Origin: an uncultured Prochlorococcus sp.
GTDB taxonomy: Bacteria > Cyanobacteriota > Cyanobacteriia > PCC-6307 > Cyanobiaceae
Length of the DNA stretch: 64,000 bases
Assembly: GCA_902536455.1 (NCBI GenBank)
Contig: CACAXN010000006.1
Coordinates: 1 to 64,000 of the forward strand
Direction: 5' to 3'
The notes under the pieces were generated by a model. The model saw only the letters and a program-made list of their open reading frames with translations. It did no database searches and had not been told where the DNA came from. Below are positions 33,998 through 41,838 of the stretch, one piece after another (position 1 is the stretch's first letter; each line of letters begins with the position of its first letter). The position numbers were made by a program, and so were the translations under genes.

Positions 33998-34657
33998 TTA
34001 TAAATCCTTTTTTAATGAAGGGTAATTATCCTTCATATATAAACTTAAATCCTCTTTTATAGCGGATCTGAGTTTCTCAATATTTGCAGAATCTATTATT
34101 GGAAAAGTTTTATTAGCTTCAGGATCTTTTTCTGTAATTGATTTCCAATTCTTACCAACATTTTTTTCAGAGTTGTTTAAAACATCATCAAAATTGAAAA
34201 CCTTATCGTTGTTTTTAGCGTCAAATTCACTTAAAGCTTTATTTATGAGCTCCTTTCTATTCTCAAATAGATTTTTGGCTTTTAAAGTATCTGGAAGACC
34301 CATAACTGGTTGTAATTCCTTAAGAAGTTTAATTTCCTCTTCAATTAAAAGTGTCCAAACACCATATTTATTTTTTGGAAGATTAGAGTTACAAAAAATA
34401 TTAACTTCATCAAGGTAAAAATTTAACCATAAATAATATGATTTTTCTTCAATAGTTTTTTTAACTGATGTTTTTTTATTTTGTATCTTTGGGAGTAACT
34501 TTTCTGCTTTCTTTAAAAACTGTCTATCTTCTCTTTCTAAATTTATTAATCCCCATCTTTGACTGTAGTCCCATAAATCTTCGTATCTTGTTAAATCTTC
34601 TTGATTCCAACCAAGAGCTTTCAGCTCATGAGAACGATGTGATAATTCCTTTTTCAA
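33998..34657 (-). CDS. Conserved-looking picocyanobacterial protein, unknown
   Basis: A 219-residue soluble protein, not recognised. Charged and helix-rich with several Trp-containing segments (LGWNQEDLTRYEDLWDYSQR, about 15-34; NKYGVWTLLIEEEIKLLKEL, about 96-115). No signal peptide or membrane segment. Downstream of metY no gene continues on this strand for 69 bases, and that gap is almost pure A/T tracts. Confidence 0.65.
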   Translation of the reverse strand: MKKELSHRSHELKALGWNQEDLTRYEDLWDYSQRWGLINLEREDRQFLKKAEKLLPKIQNKKTSVKKTIEEKSYYLWLNFYLDEVNIFCNSNLPKNKYGVWTLLIEEEIKLLKELQPVMGLPDTLKAKNLFENRKELINKALSEFDAKNNDKVFNFDDVLNNSEKNVGKNWKSITEKDPEANKTFPIIDSANIEKLRSAIKEDLSLYMKDNYPSLKKDL

Positions 34658-34749: not shown

Positions 34750-36258
34750 TCAATTATTAAAATAATTATTGATAATTTTCATTACATTTATATAGCTTGG
34801 ATATTTTTTAGAAATGTGATTACTATATTCATTTTTTTTAATATCATTTTTCTCTTTATTAATAAACAATTCTTTGTAAAGGTTTTCAATATCATGAAAA
34901 AGATATTCTCCTTTTAATTTTTCATTTAGTTCTAAAGATAATTCAGATTTAACAGATTCTTGGCAAAAATTAGTTATCTCTTCTGAACTAATTAAAACCT
35001 TATAAATTTCTTTTTTTTCTTCTGAATTAGCATTAAAACATAAATAAATAAGATTAATCATTGAACAATTATTATTTTTGATTTTGAATTCTTTATAAAT
35101 GTCTGGCCAAAATTTTAAAGATTTTAGTCCTTCTAAACCTCCTTGACTGAGAGAGTATTTATTACACCAATTTACAAATTCTGAAACATCTTTTGGACAT
35201 CTATTGAGTTGCAAAAGCATATCTGATAAAACTTGTCCTGCTTGAAAATTCCGTGTTGGTTTTCCTTCAGTTGGTAGAGTCATACTGCCTAAGACATCAG
35301 CCTTAACAGCATTTAATTGTGAAAAAGTATAATCTCCTTTTTCACAAAATTTATCATTAATTATTTCCTTTGCACTGATTATTTCTTCACCATAACCAAG
35401 TTCTTTTAATGAAAGATATTTATTTTCTAATTTATTTTCTTTTCTAACTTTTAATGATACTGATGCGGCCTGATCTAAACATTGAGTTAACAAAATCGTG
35501 TTAATGCTAGGCAGCATTCCTGGCTTATCGGAATGAAAGTTATTTACAAAACCTGCAAATATGGATGAGATATTTTTTATTGATTTTATATATTGACATT
35601 CAATATTATGAACTCCAGGAGAAACTTGAATTTTCGGGGACAATTGATTCAAAATGCGAGCTCCTATTAATGCAGTTAGTGGATCAGGATGGCAGAAATT
35701 TGCAGTAAAACTATCATTAGGATTTCGCAAAGCTCCGTGACGATGAAATCCCGTAAAAAAAGCTAAATTTGGATATTTATTACAGAGAATAAAAGGGTTT
35801 TTACTTTTATTGTCAACGCAAAAAGATCCGACGAGACAGCCAAGAACCACATTTTCTCTTTTTAAAGTTTTTCTGAGTTCTAAAGCATGTTTAACATCAT
35901 CTTTTATGTGATTACTGTTTGAAGCAAGAATTACTATCTCACATTCCAAGAGAAGATTTTTAAGATCATAAGCCTTTCTTTTTCCCTCTGAAGAATAATG
36001 TCCCATTGTCTTAATTTTTTCAATAATTTCATTATCCATATCAGAAAGGACATCATTTGAGAAAGCACCTAACAAATCTCTATCTTCCCTAGGAGCTAAG
36101 AGAATATTATTTGATTTTCCATGCATAGCACAGTTGTATGCTAATGATGCAGGATATAAACCAACACTGTAGAATCCAACTTTGCTGTTCTCTATATCTT
36201 CAATCAATGAATAAAAATATTTTTCATCATTTATGTTTTCTATGAAATTATTCTTCAT
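34750..36258 (-). CDS. Divergent glycerol-3-phosphate-dehydrogenase-like protein
   Basis: A 502-residue protein with an N-terminal Rossmann-like nucleotide site (VGFYSVGLYPASLAY, about 27-41), a second strand-helix with CEIVILASNSNHIKDDV near 110-126, and a helical region SPGVHNIECQYIKSIKNISS (about 222-241) followed by IFAGFVN. That last part resembles the GpsA segment where a conserved Lys binds G3P. The nucleotide motif is not a clean GxGxxG (it reads SVGLYPA). The chain is about 160 residues longer than GpsA. It is divergent from the GgpP gene with a 161-base gap. A role in making or using glycerol phosphate for the neighbouring pathway is inferred. Confidence 0.6.
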   Translation of the reverse strand: MKNNFIENINDEKYFYSLIEDIENSKVGFYSVGLYPASLAYNCAMHGKSNNILLAPREDRDLLGAFSNDVLSDMDNEIIEKIKTMGHYSSEGKRKAYDLKNLLLECEIVILASNSNHIKDDVKHALELRKTLKRENVVLGCLVGSFCVDNKSKNPFILCNKYPNLAFFTGFHRHGALRNPNDSFTANFCHPDPLTALIGARILNQLSPKIQVSPGVHNIECQYIKSIKNISSIFAGFVNNFHSDKPGMLPSINTILLTQCLDQAASVSLKVRKENKLENKYLSLKELGYGEEIISAKEIINDKFCEKGDYTFSQLNAVKADVLGSMTLPTEGKPTRNFQAGQVLSDMLLQLNRCPKDVSEFVNWCNKYSLSQGGLEGLKSLKFWPDIYKEFKIKNNNCSMINLIYLCFNANSEEKKEIYKVLISSEEITNFCQESVKSELSLELNEKLKGEYLFHDIENLYKELFINKEKNDIKKNEYSNHISKKYPSYINVMKIINNYFNN

Positions 36259-36419
36259 TTTTGGAAATTCTTGATAATTTTTTTAATTTCTTATCCTTAA
36301 CAACATTTTTCTACATTAAGGCAATTTTTGACCATAGCAAATTATTTATTGTAAATATTGAATTTTTTAATTTATAATTTCTTAAAAAAGAAATTAATAA
36401 AAGAGAAATAGTTTTAAAC

Positions 36420-37640
36420 ATGGAATATAAAGCAAGTAATTTAAAGGTACAAAAACAATTAATTTCTTCTAAAAATATCTTATTTATTCAAGACATTGAC
36501 GGAGTTTGTATCCCTTTAGTTAAAGATCCAATGACTAGAGAGTTAGAATCAAAATACATTTATGCAGTAAAAAAATTTGCCGAGGAATTCTTTGTATTAA
36601 CATGCGGTGAACATGAAGGTCCAAGAGGAGTTAATAGAATAATAGAAAGAAGTTTAGGGAGCACTACTGAGCCTAAAAACAAAGAGCTATATTTAAGAGG
36701 TTTAGCTGCCTGTGGAGTAGAGTATCAAGACACCAACGGTGAAATAAGTTTTGAAGGAGTCTCAGAAAAAGAACTAAATTTTTTATCAAAAGTACCTAGT
36801 TTAATAGGACCAAAATTTAATTTCATAGTTAAGAATATTTTTCCTGAACTTAGTCAAGAAGATATCAATTTTCACGCAGTAAAATCAATATGTGAAACAC
36901 GCTTCTCGCCAACCATTAATTTTAATAGTCTATTTGATTTAGTACAAAAAGATTCTGATAAAAGAAGACTTATTCAAATAAGTTTTGAAAAGATGATGAA
37001 TGAAATCATCTTAAAAGCTGAATCCGAAGGCCTCAAAAACTCATTTTTCCTTCATATTTCACCAAATTTAGGTAAAAAAAATGGTAGAGAAACAATTAAA
37101 CTCTCTTCAAAAGATGATATTGGATCAACAGATATACAATTACTTATCAAAGGAGCAGTTAAAGATTCTGGAGTTTTATTTCTATTAAATAAATTTATTG
37201 AGATTAAAACTGGCAGAGCTCCTTTTGGAACTAATTTTAATTTTAGAAATTCGCCAAAATCTTTCAAAGATAAGATTGATTTATGCAAAAGATCTATTTA
37301 TATAGATGATATGCCTTTAATAGTGGGAGTTGGAGACACAGTAACATCAAAAAAAAATAATGATGAGAAAAGTTATTCAAGAGGAGGAAGTGATAGGTCT
37401 TTTCTAGAATTTATACAAATATTAGGTAATGAATTTGGTATTGATAATAAAATCATTTTTGTGGATAGTAGTTCTGGTGAAGTTGAGAGACCTTCTACAA
37501 AAAAAACTGGTTTAATAGGAATTAGTGATATTTATGACAACTTAAAGTTTGATATAGTTTTTAAAAATGGTCCCAAAGAATATATAAGTTGGTTCATTGA
37601 ACTTGCTAATAAGAGATCAAACTTTAAAAAAAATAGTTGA
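36420..37640 (+). CDS. ggpP: Glucosylglycerol-phosphate phosphatase (GgpP/StpA-like)
   Basis: A 406-residue HAD-like phosphatase that matches from memory the Synechocystis salt-tolerance protein StpA, which dephosphorylates glucosylglycerol 3-phosphate to the osmolyte glucosylglycerol. Shared blocks: FIQDIDGVCIPLVKDP (about 22-37, nucleophile D25 and D27), FFVLTCGEHEGPRGVNRIIE (about 56-75), SFFLHISPNLG, IVGVGDTVTSKKN and GGSDRSFLEFIQ. No glucosylglycerol-phosphate synthase (ggpS) is in the window, and Prochlorococcus is generally thought to lack this osmolyte, so its true substrate deserves a check. The radical SAM gene follows after 38 bases. Confidence 0.85.
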   Translation: MEYKASNLKVQKQLISSKNILFIQDIDGVCIPLVKDPMTRELESKYIYAVKKFAEEFFVLTCGEHEGPRGVNRIIERSLGSTTEPKNKELYLRGLAACGVEYQDTNGEISFEGVSEKELNFLSKVPSLIGPKFNFIVKNIFPELSQEDINFHAVKSICETRFSPTINFNSLFDLVQKDSDKRRLIQISFEKMMNEIILKAESEGLKNSFFLHISPNLGKKNGRETIKLSSKDDIGSTDIQLLIKGAVKDSGVLFLLNKFIEIKTGRAPFGTNFNFRNSPKSFKDKIDLCKRSIYIDDMPLIVGVGDTVTSKKNNDEKSYSRGGSDRSFLEFIQILGNEFGIDNKIIFVDSSSGEVERPSTKKTGLIGISDIYDNLKFDIVFKNGPKEYISWFIELANKRSNFKKNS

Positions 37641-37678
37641 CTTTTTAATTTTCGAATGAAAATTTATAAATTATATAT

Positions 37679-38611
37679 ATGAAAGAAAAATTCCCCTCAA
37701 TATATAAAGAACCTATAGAAACCTTGCAAATTAATATAGGTTATAAATGCAACCAGGCTTGTAAGCATTGTCATGTCAATTCAAGTCCACTAAGGACTGA
37801 AAAGATGTCAAATGAAATCATATCTCTTATTCCAAAAATAATTGAAAAATACAAAATCAAGACTTTAGATATTACTGGTGGTGCGCCAGAACTTCACCCA
37901 GAGTTTAAAAACCTTATAAATAGTTTGAGCACAAAAAAAGTTGATATTATTGACAGGTGTAATTTGACAATTTTTTTTGAAGAAGGTTATGAAGATCTTC
38001 CACAATTTCTTGCAAAGAATAAAGTGATAGTTACGGCTTCGCTACCATGTTACGAAAAAAATAATGTTGAGTTTCAAAGGGGTCTTGGGGTTTTTGAAAA
38101 AAGTATTAATGCCATAAAAATTCTTAATGATTTAGGCTATGGAAAGAAAGAAAATGGATTACAATTAAATCTTGTTTATAATCCTGTAAACCCAATTCTT
38201 CCTCCTTCTCAGGAAATACTGGAGAAGGATTATAAGAAAATACTATTCGAAAAATATAATATCGTTTTTAATAATTTATACACAATAACTAATATGCCAA
38301 TAAATAGATATGAAGAATCTCTTAGAAGAGAAGGGAAACTAAATACTTATTACAAATTACTAAAAGAAAATTTTAATGAAAAAAACTTAGAAAATCTAAT
38401 GTGTAAAAAAACAATTAGCGTAAATTGGCTAGGAGAAATTTATGATTGTGACTTTAACCAACAGATAAATTTCCGAGAGAATAAAGGACCAAAGACACTT
38501 TTTGATCTATTGGATGAATCATTTACTTTTGACTACGGGGTAGCTGTAAAAGAACATTGTTTTGCTTGCACTGCAGGTGCAGGGTCAAGTTGTGGAGGAA
38601 CTTTAAGTTAA
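37679..38611 (+). CDS. arsS: ArsS-type radical SAM/Cys-rich protein
   Basis: A 310-residue radical SAM enzyme. The cluster motif is CNQACKHC (C24, C28, C31), in NIGYKCNQACKHCHVNSSP, with ITGGAPELHPEF near 65-76. The C-terminal Cys-rich domain ends CFACTAGAGSSCGG, the mark of the family holding ArsS, which with ArsM makes arsenosugar precursors (adding a deoxyadenosyl group to dimethylarsenic) in Synechocystis. No arsM is in the window. It follows ggpP by 38 bases on the same strand and faces a Fur-family regulator gene. Family is clear; the arsenic substrate is inferred. Confidence 0.88.
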   Translation: MKEKFPSIYKEPIETLQINIGYKCNQACKHCHVNSSPLRTEKMSNEIISLIPKIIEKYKIKTLDITGGAPELHPEFKNLINSLSTKKVDIIDRCNLTIFFEEGYEDLPQFLAKNKVIVTASLPCYEKNNVEFQRGLGVFEKSINAIKILNDLGYGKKENGLQLNLVYNPVNPILPPSQEILEKDYKKILFEKYNIVFNNLYTITNMPINRYEESLRREGKLNTYYKLLKENFNEKNLENLMCKKTISVNWLGEIYDCDFNQQINFRENKGPKTLFDLLDESFTFDYGVAVKEHCFACTAGAGSSCGGTLS

Positions 38612-39819: not shown

Positions 39820-40866
39820 ATGGTTTATTTGAATATGAAATTAGTTACTGAAAACTTCCTTCTAGCAATATCTATTTTTTTTATTGGAACTTTATTGTCG
39901 ATAATAATTTCTAAACTTTCAAAAATATTTTTTAAAAAGATTTCCAAAAGAACAAAAACAAATTTCGATGATTTTATTTTTGAGGTAATCTCTGGAGTTA
40001 TAAAACCTATAGGTTTACTCCTTTCATTTTATTTTTCAATTGACTATTTTTTTGCTGATGAAATAACTTTCATCTCTGTCTTATTGAATATTCTGAAATT
40101 ATTTATATTAATAATCATCATAAAAGCTCTCAACAAAGTTTTAATAAGATCTTTAACAGAATCGACCTCGAAAATTAATGATTCCTCAATTAGTTCAATG
40201 GTATCTTCACTAACTCCATTGATAAAAGCATTAACATGGACTATTGGTTCAATATTTTTCTTACAAAATATAGGTGTTCAAATGACTGCTATATGGGCTT
40301 TACTAAGTGCAGGAGGTATTGGAGCAGGATTAGCTTTGAAAGATCCAGTTCAGGAGTTTTTTGAATATATAACAATTTTGCTTGATAAACCTTTTCAAAA
40401 AGGTGAGTTTATAAAATCTGATGGAGTCCTCGGAATGGTTGAGAGGGTCGGAGTAAGATCCTCAAGGATAAGAAGTATTAATGGAGAAGTAATAGTAATG
40501 AGCAACAGCGCCCTAACAAATGGAATAATTTCAAATTACGCACAAATGGAAAAAAGGAGGTTAGTGCATAAATTAGGAGTTGTTTATGAAACCTCTCCAA
40601 AACTTATGAAATTGATTCCAATAATAATTGAAAAAATAGTTGAAGAGACAAAAGATGCGTCTTTTGATAGATGTCATTTCACAGATTTCGGCGACTTCAG
40701 TCTTAATTTCGAACTTGTTTATTACATCCCAACAAATAATTATCTCGCTGCAATGGAAGCTCAACAATCTATAAATTTAAGAATTATTGAGGAATTTGCG
40801 GTTAATAATATAGAGTTTGCATTCCCAACACAAACCTTAAATATTGAAAGTAACAAAGCCAAATGA
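39820..40866 (+). CDS. MscS-type mechanosensitive channel
   Basis: A 348-residue membrane protein with four or five hydrophobic helices. The pore helix and its following segment read AIWALLSAGGIGAGLALKDP (about 157-176), with the small-residue pattern of MscS TM3, then EFFEYITILLDKPFQKGEFI of the beta domain and the EVIVMSNSALTNGIISNY segment. It would release solutes on hypo-osmotic shock. The 3' end overlaps the facing SDR gene by 30 bases. Confidence 0.9.
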   Translation: MVYLNMKLVTENFLLAISIFFIGTLLSIIISKLSKIFFKKISKRTKTNFDDFIFEVISGVIKPIGLLLSFYFSIDYFFADEITFISVLLNILKLFILIIIIKALNKVLIRSLTESTSKINDSSISSMVSSLTPLIKALTWTIGSIFFLQNIGVQMTAIWALLSAGGIGAGLALKDPVQEFFEYITILLDKPFQKGEFIKSDGVLGMVERVGVRSSRIRSINGEVIVMSNSALTNGIISNYAQMEKRRLVHKLGVVYETSPKLMKLIPIIIEKIVEETKDASFDRCHFTDFGDFSLNFELVYYIPTNNYLAAMEAQQSINLRIIEEFAVNNIEFAFPTQTLNIESNKAK

Positions 40867-41838
40867 TCTACAAATCTCTTCACTTAAAATCCAGAGTTTT
40901 GAAGCCAACTCAGAATTATTTGCCTCATCACTAACCTCACTTTCAACTAATTTATGTTTTTTAAAAGATATAAGTTTATTACTTAAATGAACGTAACTAA
41001 TATTATTAAAATTTGAATCGAAAACAATTTCAGAAAGTATTTTACCAGCATTTTCAATACTTTCAGAAATTCCTAAAATATTTTTTGCAGCTTTAGAAAA
41101 AATTAAATATCCAAAGAGATTAAAACGTTTACTATATCTAAAAAAACCGGAATCATCATTTGGTATTACTAGACCAGGAGCCCAAGTAATTACAGAAATT
41201 TTACTGGAGGAAATTTTTAATTTTTTTTCAAGTTCTTTAGCAAACAAAATATTACATAACTTACTATTTTTATAAGCTTCATCAGCATTAAAATTTAAAA
41301 ATTGCCCAGTTACTTTTTTTCTAAAATCAACTAGTTTGTTAAGTCCCGCTTTCTTTCCTACATTGCCACCTGAACTTTTGGGGTCGTGAACATCTGATGA
41401 TGTAATAATGATTCTAGATTCTTCTTTATCTCTTACAAAATCTTTTAGGATATTCACCAAGTAAAAATGTGCAAGATGATTTACTGCAAAAGTTAGTTCT
41501 ATGCATTGTTTTGATACTTTAGGGTAAAAAGAGCCTGTATATTGTAATCCTGCATTTAAAACAACTACATCTAAAAATATCTTTTTAGTAATAAAGTAAT
41601 CTTTAATTTTTTTAATGTTCTCTAGATCAGAAAGATCACAATTTTCAATAATATTTAAATATTTACTGAAGTAATTTTTATCAAAATATTTCTCAATTGT
41701 TTTAAGAAATTCATTCTTTCTTAATTCAGATTTTATTACAACGTATAAATTATTTTTCGTCTTTAGTAAATTAATGGTGGCAAAAAGCCCTATGCCCGAA
41801 TTACCTCCAGTAATTAAAATATTTTTATTTTTAATCAT
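40837..41838 (-). CDS. Protochlorophyllide-reductase-like short-chain dehydrogenase
   Basis: A 333-residue SDR with ILITGGNSGIGLFA (about 7-20, NADPH site), VVLNAGLQYTG (about 92-102), FAVNHLAHFYL and the catalytic AYKNSKLCNILFAKEL (Tyr and Lys in YxxxK with the Cys after it, as in light-dependent POR). The C-terminal SELASKLWILSEEICRSFGF resembles the POR end. It differs from true POR in its glycine-motif region (GGNSGIG) and in insertions, so it is more likely a POR-like paralogue than the chlorophyll enzyme itself. Confidence 0.78.
   Translation of the reverse strand: MIKNKNILITGGNSGIGLFATINLLKTKNNLYVVIKSELRKNEFLKTIEKYFDKNYFSKYLNIIENCDLSDLENIKKIKDYFITKKIFLDVVVLNAGLQYTGSFYPKVSKQCIELTFAVNHLAHFYLVNILKDFVRDKEESRIIITSSDVHDPKSSGGNVGKKAGLNKLVDFRKKVTGQFLNFNADEAYKNSKLCNILFAKELEKKLKISSSKISVITWAPGLVIPNDDSGFFRYSKRFNLFGYLIFSKAAKNILGISESIENAGKILSEIVFDSNFNNISYVHLSNKLISFKKHKLVESEVSDEANNSELASKLWILSEEICRSFGFVTFNI

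Follow-up and report, generated by a model that had tools for sequence, protein, structure and literature searches.

A diverged dehydrogenase-like protein paired with an orphan GgpP phosphatase is a candidate replacement for GpsA in marine picocyanobacteria

Introduction

Where do cells of Prochlorococcus, the ocean's commonest photosynthetic cells, obtain the sn-glycerol-3-phosphate (G3P) on which membrane glycerolipids are built? The question is raised by a locus in the 64,000-nucleotide stretch of an uncultured Prochlorococcus contig (CACAXN010000006.1) analysed here, called the window, whose assembly comprises 1.0 Mb in 41 contigs and is 63% complete. A gene on the minus strand (34750-36258) encodes a protein of 502 amino acids, termed p34, which a preliminary description of the window had labelled GpsA-like. 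It stands divergent to ggpP, the gene of a glucosylglycerol-3-phosphate phosphatase, behind which lies a gene for an ArsS-type radical S-adenosylmethionine (SAM) protein, and the same description had proposed that the three may form one pathway. The analysis presented here indicates that p34 is probably a highly diverged dihydroxyacetone phosphate (DHAP) reductase, that is, a predicted sn-G3P dehydrogenase which would replace GpsA in marine picocyanobacteria. This assignment was built on predicted fold, residue invariance, gene distribution and synteny, all computed here, from which we infer the reaction of p34, its cofactor and direction, its essentiality and the order of events.

The gap that such an enzyme would fill is visible in the literature. 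The available text of a 2012 survey gives EC 1.1.1.94 as lacking an annotation in its Prochlorococcus strains and in Synechococcus WH7803 (PMC3369817). According to the accessible part of another study, a flavin adenine dinucleotide (FAD)-dependent glpA is the marine variant and gpsA the freshwater one, both occur in brackish SC5.2 isolates, and marine isolates carry the FAD-dependent glpA as well as glpK (PMC9361551). Excerpts of a third report describe glpK and glpD as absent from anoxia-adapted and symbiotic Synechococcus (PMC12997750). In the portions of the literature covered, which included few subscription papers, neither p34 nor any other replacement dependent on reduced nicotinamide adenine dinucleotide (phosphate), NAD(P)H, is named.

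Predicted structure and conserved residues of p34

The window protein matched no family in Pfam and none in NCBIfam, and the profile of 32 p34 relatives matched no PDB sequence at E-values up to 10; the GpsA-like label thus failed by sequence models and held by predicted structure. An AlphaFold2 model of the window p34 was generated from the 32-row alignment (predicted local distance difference test, pLDDT, 80.3; predicted template modelling score, pTM, 0.80). In Foldseek its first 15 matches were all G3P dehydrogenases (E 6.7e-8 to 2.5e-6). In VIA-align the first 16 rows, several of which are the same enzyme in different PDB entries, were all G3P dehydrogenases as well, with Z scores of 21.4-26.6. 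The best row was Coxiella GpsA (3k96; Z 26.6, root-mean-square deviation 3.1, 310 aligned residues, 13% identity), and the next family, ketopantoate reductase, followed at Z 13.4. A second AlphaFold2 model was obtained for the p34 homologue of G170, a cyanobacterium of another family, which is 44% identical to the window protein; 16 G3P dehydrogenase rows were found for it at Z 22.7-26.8, the next family reaching 14.0. Both models showed the two-domain G3P dehydrogenase fold, with 297-333 residues aligned, and the comparison with GpsA suggested in the preliminary description was borne out to this extent.

Several conserved groups of residues may correspond to landmarks of such an enzyme. K228-N229, D321, R336-N337 and L375-E376-G377 of p34 were invariant in all 32 relatives and run in the same order as Lys-Asn, Asp, Arg-Asn and V-E-G in canonical GpsA, where Lys-Asn is catalytic and Arg-Asn phosphate-binding. 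HHalign set the K-N, D, R-N and L-E-G motifs of p34 on the K-N, D, R-N and V-E-G of GpsA, in an alignment of non-significant probability (0.5%) that paired the Lys-Asn only once no accuracy threshold was applied. R57 and R60, located right after strand 2, were also invariant, and this sequence pattern suggests that p34 may use NADPH.

A contig search yielded 299 relatives of p34, of which 80 were retained as Prochlorococcus-type loci; among these 80 of 299, from Prochlorococcus or uncultured Synechococcaceae, the closest relative had 97% identity. The window gene was under purifying selection, with a median ratio of nonsynonymous to synonymous substitution rates (dN/dS) of 0.133 against 77 relatives. 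Such comparisons used 77 (p34), 78 (ggpP) and 75 (arsS) of the 80 loci, with gapless alignments, at least 90% cover and dS below 2. We regard p34 as a separate, diverged family with the fold of the G3P dehydrogenases, whose function it most likely shares.

A conserved stretch between helices was also observed at about residues 271-310 of p34, with the consensus LTELGYGVQRIEAAL. The canonical enzymes are much shorter. It was modelled with low confidence in the window protein and, partly, at 293-311 in the G170 homologue, and may be a lid or an interface.

Distribution of p34, gpsA and other G3P enzymes

The family sample consisted of 101 genomes, presumably of Cyanobiaceae, 49 of them at least 98% and 63 at least 90% complete. 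In this sample p34 occurred in 55 genomes, ggpP in 57 and GpsA (PF07479) in 38, whereas ArsS exceeded its cut-off in 83 and ggpS in 44; as a control, PF07479 was found in 10 of 14 well-known genomes. Genome G069, where p34, ggpP and ggpS are present as fragments only, was scored as positive for the first two and negative for the third. The 49 genomes of at least 98% completeness comprised 24 with p34 only, 15 with gpsA only, 10 with both and none with neither, which means that no gpsA-less genome of this quality lacked p34. In further p34 carriers of the family gpsA was not found (15 of 15), nor was it found in any Prochlorococcus-type genome searched. One genome without gpsA, G054 (98%, one contig), stands apart from the main gpsA-less group.

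Across the phylum, p34 was detected in 33 of 292 genomes, namely in 32 of the family and in G170. The G170 copy (locus L185, contig 126) is the sole p34 outside the family in this set, and G170 carries gpsA on another contig. In the p34 tree it grouped with family rows from gpsA-bearing genomes, the support of 92/79 not being strong, which hints at lateral transfer.

Other routes to G3P were assessed in 50 chosen genomes. Glycerol kinase (glpK) and the FAD-dependent G3P dehydrogenase (glpD) were found in the same 25 of these, glpK being called by full-length matches, 3 of the 25 over the curated cut-off. Fourteen genomes had p34 only, with no gpsA, ggpS, glpK or glpD; 14 had p34 with ggpS and glpK/glpD; 10 had all of them; 11 had gpsA only; and G073 alone had just ggpS and glpK/glpD. 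All 14 p34 carriers without ggpS thus also lacked gpsA, glpK and glpD. These fourteen, of which 13 are near-complete (at least 99%) and one is the window's own assembly (63%), belong to the window's genus and, presumably, to other Prochlorococcus lineages. PlsY, the G3P acyltransferase, which consumes G3P, was present in all 29 genomes tested, including all 14 with p34 only. Since gpsA, glpK and glpD were not found there and PlsY and p34 were present, p34 is a candidate source of G3P in these cells. Two other sources were set aside: glpK/glpD as the general source of marine strains, because both were not found in 14 of the 28 p34-positive, gpsA-negative genomes tested, and uptake of external G3P, because axenic Prochlorococcus grows in inorganic medium.

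Arguments against the assignment and a different reaction

A number of observations weigh against p34 as the replacement of GpsA. No GpsA model was matched in Pfam by 32 p34 relatives or in NCBIfam by 22, and HHalign comparisons of p34 with GpsA were not significant, with probabilities of 0.1% and 0.5%. The nucleotide loop reads S31-V-G33-L-Y-P36, i.e. S-x-G-x-x-P (P in 29 of 32 relatives), where GpsA would have GxGxxG, and at p34 position 143 all 32 have A, V or S in place of the Lys found in the canonical 'T/S-K-G' strand. These two departures explain why p34 is not filed in the Pfam-defined GpsA family, and because of them its cofactor or chemistry may differ from that of GpsA, as judged from the sequence. 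Residues 171-180, which include an invariant H-R-H, were modelled at a pLDDT of 56, and the active-site register was assigned by sequence order, not by residue-level superposition.

The distribution adds further points. Ten of the 49 genomes of at least 98% completeness carry p34 as well as gpsA. Nineteen of the 101 genomes lack both; 17 of these are 53-88% complete, and the other two, G013 (90%) and G073 (94%), are the only such cases among the 63 genomes of at least 90%. The genomes are related and not independent of one another, so that the Fisher p-values computed for the complementarity are too favourable: on the p34 tree the gpsA label has to switch only three times, and one of these switches depends on the 82% complete G097. 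Both glpK and glpD are present in 14 of the 28 gpsA-less p34 carriers tested, in which p34 need not be the sole source of G3P. The association with ggpP described below is not strict either. In 7 of 52 genomes the two genes are separated by over 5 kb or are found on separate contigs; p34 occurs without ggpP in G083 and the partial G012, and ggpP without p34 in G013, G027, G057 and G073; in G025 p34 and arsS are divergent neighbours and ggpP is on another contig.

These data could be accommodated if p34 had the same fold and another reaction, reducing some other phosphorylated compound of salt metabolism, a ketone or a sugar, or if it had lost its redox activity and acted as a regulator, G3P then coming from an unrecognised enzyme. 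The altered Rossmann loop and the replaced canonical Lys would agree with this, as would the ten genomes of at least 98% that keep p34 together with gpsA and the fact that p34 is tied more tightly to ggpP than to the absence of gpsA. On the other hand, the structural match was specific to G3P dehydrogenases, which scored about 8-13 Z above ketopantoate reductases, the K-N and R-N motifs are kept, and not one genome of at least 98% lacks both gpsA and p34. We therefore regard a different reaction as rather unlikely and retain p34 as the probable G3P dehydrogenase.

Pairing of p34 with ggpP

Among the 49 genomes of at least 98%, p34 and ggpP were both present in 33 and both absent in 15, and p34 occurred alone in one (G083). 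Positions were available for 52 of the 53 genomes that have the two genes, the ggpP fragments of G069 being left out; in 41 of these 52 the genes were divergent and no more than 1 kb apart. In the 80 Prochlorococcus-type loci the pair was divergent without exception, the aligned parts being 156-173 bases apart; in the window the intergenic region measures 161 bases (36259-36419). Five genomes (L051-L055: G009, G024, G064, G092 and G097) carry p34 between a block of ggpS with ABC transporter genes (the two permeases being presumed) and ggpP, and beyond ggpP, where the stretch extends, a GH13 enzyme and glpD follow. Open reading frames (ORFs) in the 34 p34 loci compared were naive calls. According to a figure legend in a review (PMC6753628), the available text of which does not mention p34, the genes found close to ggpS in other cyanobacteria include gpsA, glpD and glpK. 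Because p34 pairs with ggpP and sits in ggpS clusters, its distribution fits an origin as the G3P supplier of glucosylglycerol synthesis, which would have assumed a housekeeping role after gpsA was lost.

In 12 of the 34 loci, none of them from the window's own genus, a kinase gene of the APH family adjoins or closely trails the p34 homologue in the same direction: at L074:3817-4953, where it scores 49.6 bits to PF01636, and at 11 other loci. This kinase is a possible third partner of p34 and GgpP.

GgpP without GgpS

The window ggpP (36420-37640, plus strand) encodes a protein of 406 amino acids of the GgpP/StpA family, with 616.6 bits to TIGR02399 (cut-off 365.5) and 492.4 bits to PF09506. 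As the preliminary description had rightly noted, neither ggpS nor arsM lies in the window, and ggpS was not found in any of four genus members, the window's assembly (63%) and three congeners that are 100% complete; an osmolyte synthesised with no standard GgpS, as it also envisaged, is conceivable. A PF02358 search of the window's own genome gave no match. Residues D33, D35 and G36 (G017 numbering) of the D-x-D-G motif, which is the motif of HAD-type phosphatases, were invariant in all 26 GgpP proteins compared. Of 90 columns invariant in the 17 proteins from ggpS-bearing genomes, 71 were also invariant in the nine from genomes lacking ggpS, and none was altered in all nine, for which reason there is no sign of a switched GgpP specificity. 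The median dN/dS of the window gene was 0.149 against 78 relatives. Judged from sequence conservation, the orphan GgpP is apparently not decaying and is kept as a conserved phosphatase in the absence of ggpS.

Two functions of this orphan, both compatible with p34 being a G3P dehydrogenase, were considered. GgpP may have taken over the dephosphorylation of sucrose phosphate, with p34 linked to it by history only. The accessible text of a published report (PMC11505929) proposes such an activity for GgpP and states that Prochlorococcus has no separate spp, a mostly truncated spsA and frequent ggpP; it also cites Klahn 2010 for strain MIT 9303, in which ggpP is present, ggpS is absent and glucosylglycerol is not made. 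This proposal does not account for the 15 of 49 genomes in which p34 and ggpP are both missing, and it would have to be reconciled with the lack of any invariant column altered in all nine orphan proteins; we consider it conceivable, with the balance tilted against it.

Alternatively, p34 and GgpP could constitute a glycerol module, in which p34 would make G3P and GgpP would dephosphorylate G3P or a related ester to a glycerol osmolyte. Such a module is suggested by analogy with the Dunaliella G3P dehydrogenase 6iuy, which was among the structural matches (Z 25.1), and would be in line with the tight coupling of p34 and ggpP even where ggpS is absent and with the conserved columns and selection kept by GgpP in ggpS-lacking genomes. 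TIGR02399, however, is a family of glucosylglycerol-phosphate phosphatases, and the published proposal, as far as its available text goes, is a sucrose-phosphate phosphatase (PMC11505929). The glycerol module thus appears improbable.

The ArsS gene

The gene behind ggpP (37679-38611, plus strand) starts after a gap of 38 bases and encodes an ArsS-type radical SAM protein of 310 amino acids (TIGR04167, PF12345, PF04055). The layout of a divergent pair followed by arsS was found as the preliminary description had given it. The protein scored 443.8 bits to TIGR04167 (cut-off 300), its translation contains the Cx3Cx2C cluster motif as C-N-Q-A-C-K-H-C, and the median dN/dS of the gene was 0.069 against 75 relatives. 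In 78 of the 80 Prochlorococcus-type loci arsS lies behind ggpP; in the remaining two the ggpP match was partial and arsS was not found.

This arrangement could mean that p34, GgpP and ArsS together build an arsenosugar-glycerol. The trio follows in steps of at most 1 kb in 34 genomes and stays together in those 78 loci, the genome has an ArsM-like gene at another site, and in G025 p34 adjoins a divergent arsS although ggpP lies elsewhere. The wider distribution speaks against it. ArsS was over cut-off in all 49 genomes of at least 98%, including 15 without p34 and ggpP, and the p34-ggpP pair was present in 33 of the 49. In 14 of 56 genomes arsS was separated from ggpP by over 1 kb or stood on a different contig, and in the five genomes with p34 and ggpP beside ggpS and transporter genes arsS was more than 450 kb away or on another contig. 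The single arsenosugar pathway was therefore rejected as very improbable. Of the proposed three-gene pathway, the association of p34 with GgpP persisted and that of ArsS did not, the latter being scattered in relatives and not lost together with the pair. Because ArsS occurs in every near-complete genome and is scattered in relatives, it is most likely a genomic neighbour with a job of its own, sharing the location and not the pathway, to which the adjacency in G025 is a weak caveat.

ArsM-like genes were searched for as well. Among 58 strong matches, 53 were in genomes with ArsS, and in these 53 the distance between the two genes was at most 1 kb in 7 and at most 6 kb in 12, some of which also carry p34. 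In the window's assembly the ArsM-like gene is on contig 1, another contig than arsS; in the congener G017 it is 209 kb from arsS. The G017 protein, the one Prochlorococcus-type protein scanned, scored 256 bits to NF040538 (cut-off 500), 176 to NF008823 (263) and 103 to NF038099 (400), and NF008823 had no match over cut-off in the 101 genomes. In the accessible part of a published study, arsenic methylation genes are described as ubiquitous in Prochlorococcus populations (PMC6426599). ArsM-like methyltransferases outside the window, below curated cut-offs, are at L190:3319-4146 and G000 contig 1:10129-10713.

Promoter signals and neighbouring genes

A sigma-70-like match pointing to ggpP was located in the intergenic region at 36349-36378; the promoter-like sites of this region were not above shuffled sequences (10 versus 14.5 expected), and the promoter and terminator scan returned no terminators. 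No p34 relatives were found in viral contigs, where the scan gave 7 pattern matches only. On the minus strand at 33998-34657, p34 is adjoined by a gene for a 219-amino-acid protein without an NCBIfam family and with a sub-threshold Pfam match only, whose homologues were found in 16 of 34 p34 loci. A short-chain dehydrogenase at 40837-41838 reached 113 bits to the protochlorophyllide reductase LPOR (cut-off 331) and is distantly LPOR-like.

Discussion

The analysis puts forward a single conserved gene, recognised by none of the family models applied, as a candidate for the G3P step of Prochlorococcus, which would explain how these strains manage without gpsA, glpK and glpD. In the mechanism that we propose, the N-terminal Rossmann domain of p34 would bind NAD(P)H and the helical C-terminal domain DHAP, with its phosphate on R336-N337; K228 would protonate the carbonyl during hydride transfer, giving sn-G3P. 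In relatives with ggpS, the p34 gene would belong with ggpS and ggpP, and G3P would serve as the acceptor for GgpS. Upon loss of the canonical gpsA in marine lineages, p34 may have become the main source of G3P for PlsX/PlsY and the membrane glycerolipids, and where ggpS, glpK and glpD are missing as well, as in the window's genus, it would be the only recognisable one, GgpP staying beside it as a conserved phosphatase. If this is true, an enzyme of an osmolyte cluster assumed a housekeeping function as these cells adapted to marine life. A more far-reaching version, in which marine picocyanobacteria swapped the ancestral GpsA for this salt-cluster dehydrogenase with its altered cofactor loop and p34 and GgpP, besides supplying lipids, also run a two-gene route from DHAP through G3P to a glycerol or glycerol-ester osmolyte in ggpS-less lineages, as the Dunaliella fusion enzyme would do in a single protein, seems distinctly unlikely.

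Compared with known systems, the locus resembles ArsM-ArsS arsenosugar biosynthesis in its ArsS over cut-off and in the ArsM-like gene of the genome; it differs in the distance of that gene, on another contig here and 209 kb off in G017, and there is no sign that p34 and GgpP belong to that system. With the GgpS/GgpP pathway of Synechocystis (PMC6753628) it shares a GgpP over cut-off and, in five relatives, p34 and ggpP near ggpS, whereas searches of four genus members found no ggpS, glpK or glpD. GpsA/GPD1 (PF01210 and PF07479) is like p34 in its two-domain fold and complementary to it across genomes, and its Lys-Asn, Asp and Arg-Asn may correspond to the invariant ones that follow in the same order in p34. 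In contrast to these enzymes, p34 has 10-15% identity to them, falls outside the Pfam and NCBIfam models, has an S-x-G-x-x-P loop and a replaced 'K-G' Lys, and exceeds most of the matched solved enzymes by about 150-175 residues, with the conserved insert, partly of low confidence, and a C-terminal extension. The DsGPDH of Dunaliella salina (6iuy), which we take to be a G3P dehydrogenase fused to a phosphatase domain, is alike in fold (Z 25.1) and in pairing a dehydrogenase with a phosphatase in a salt context; unlike in that fusion, the two partners here are encoded by divergent genes and the phosphatase is of the GgpP family.

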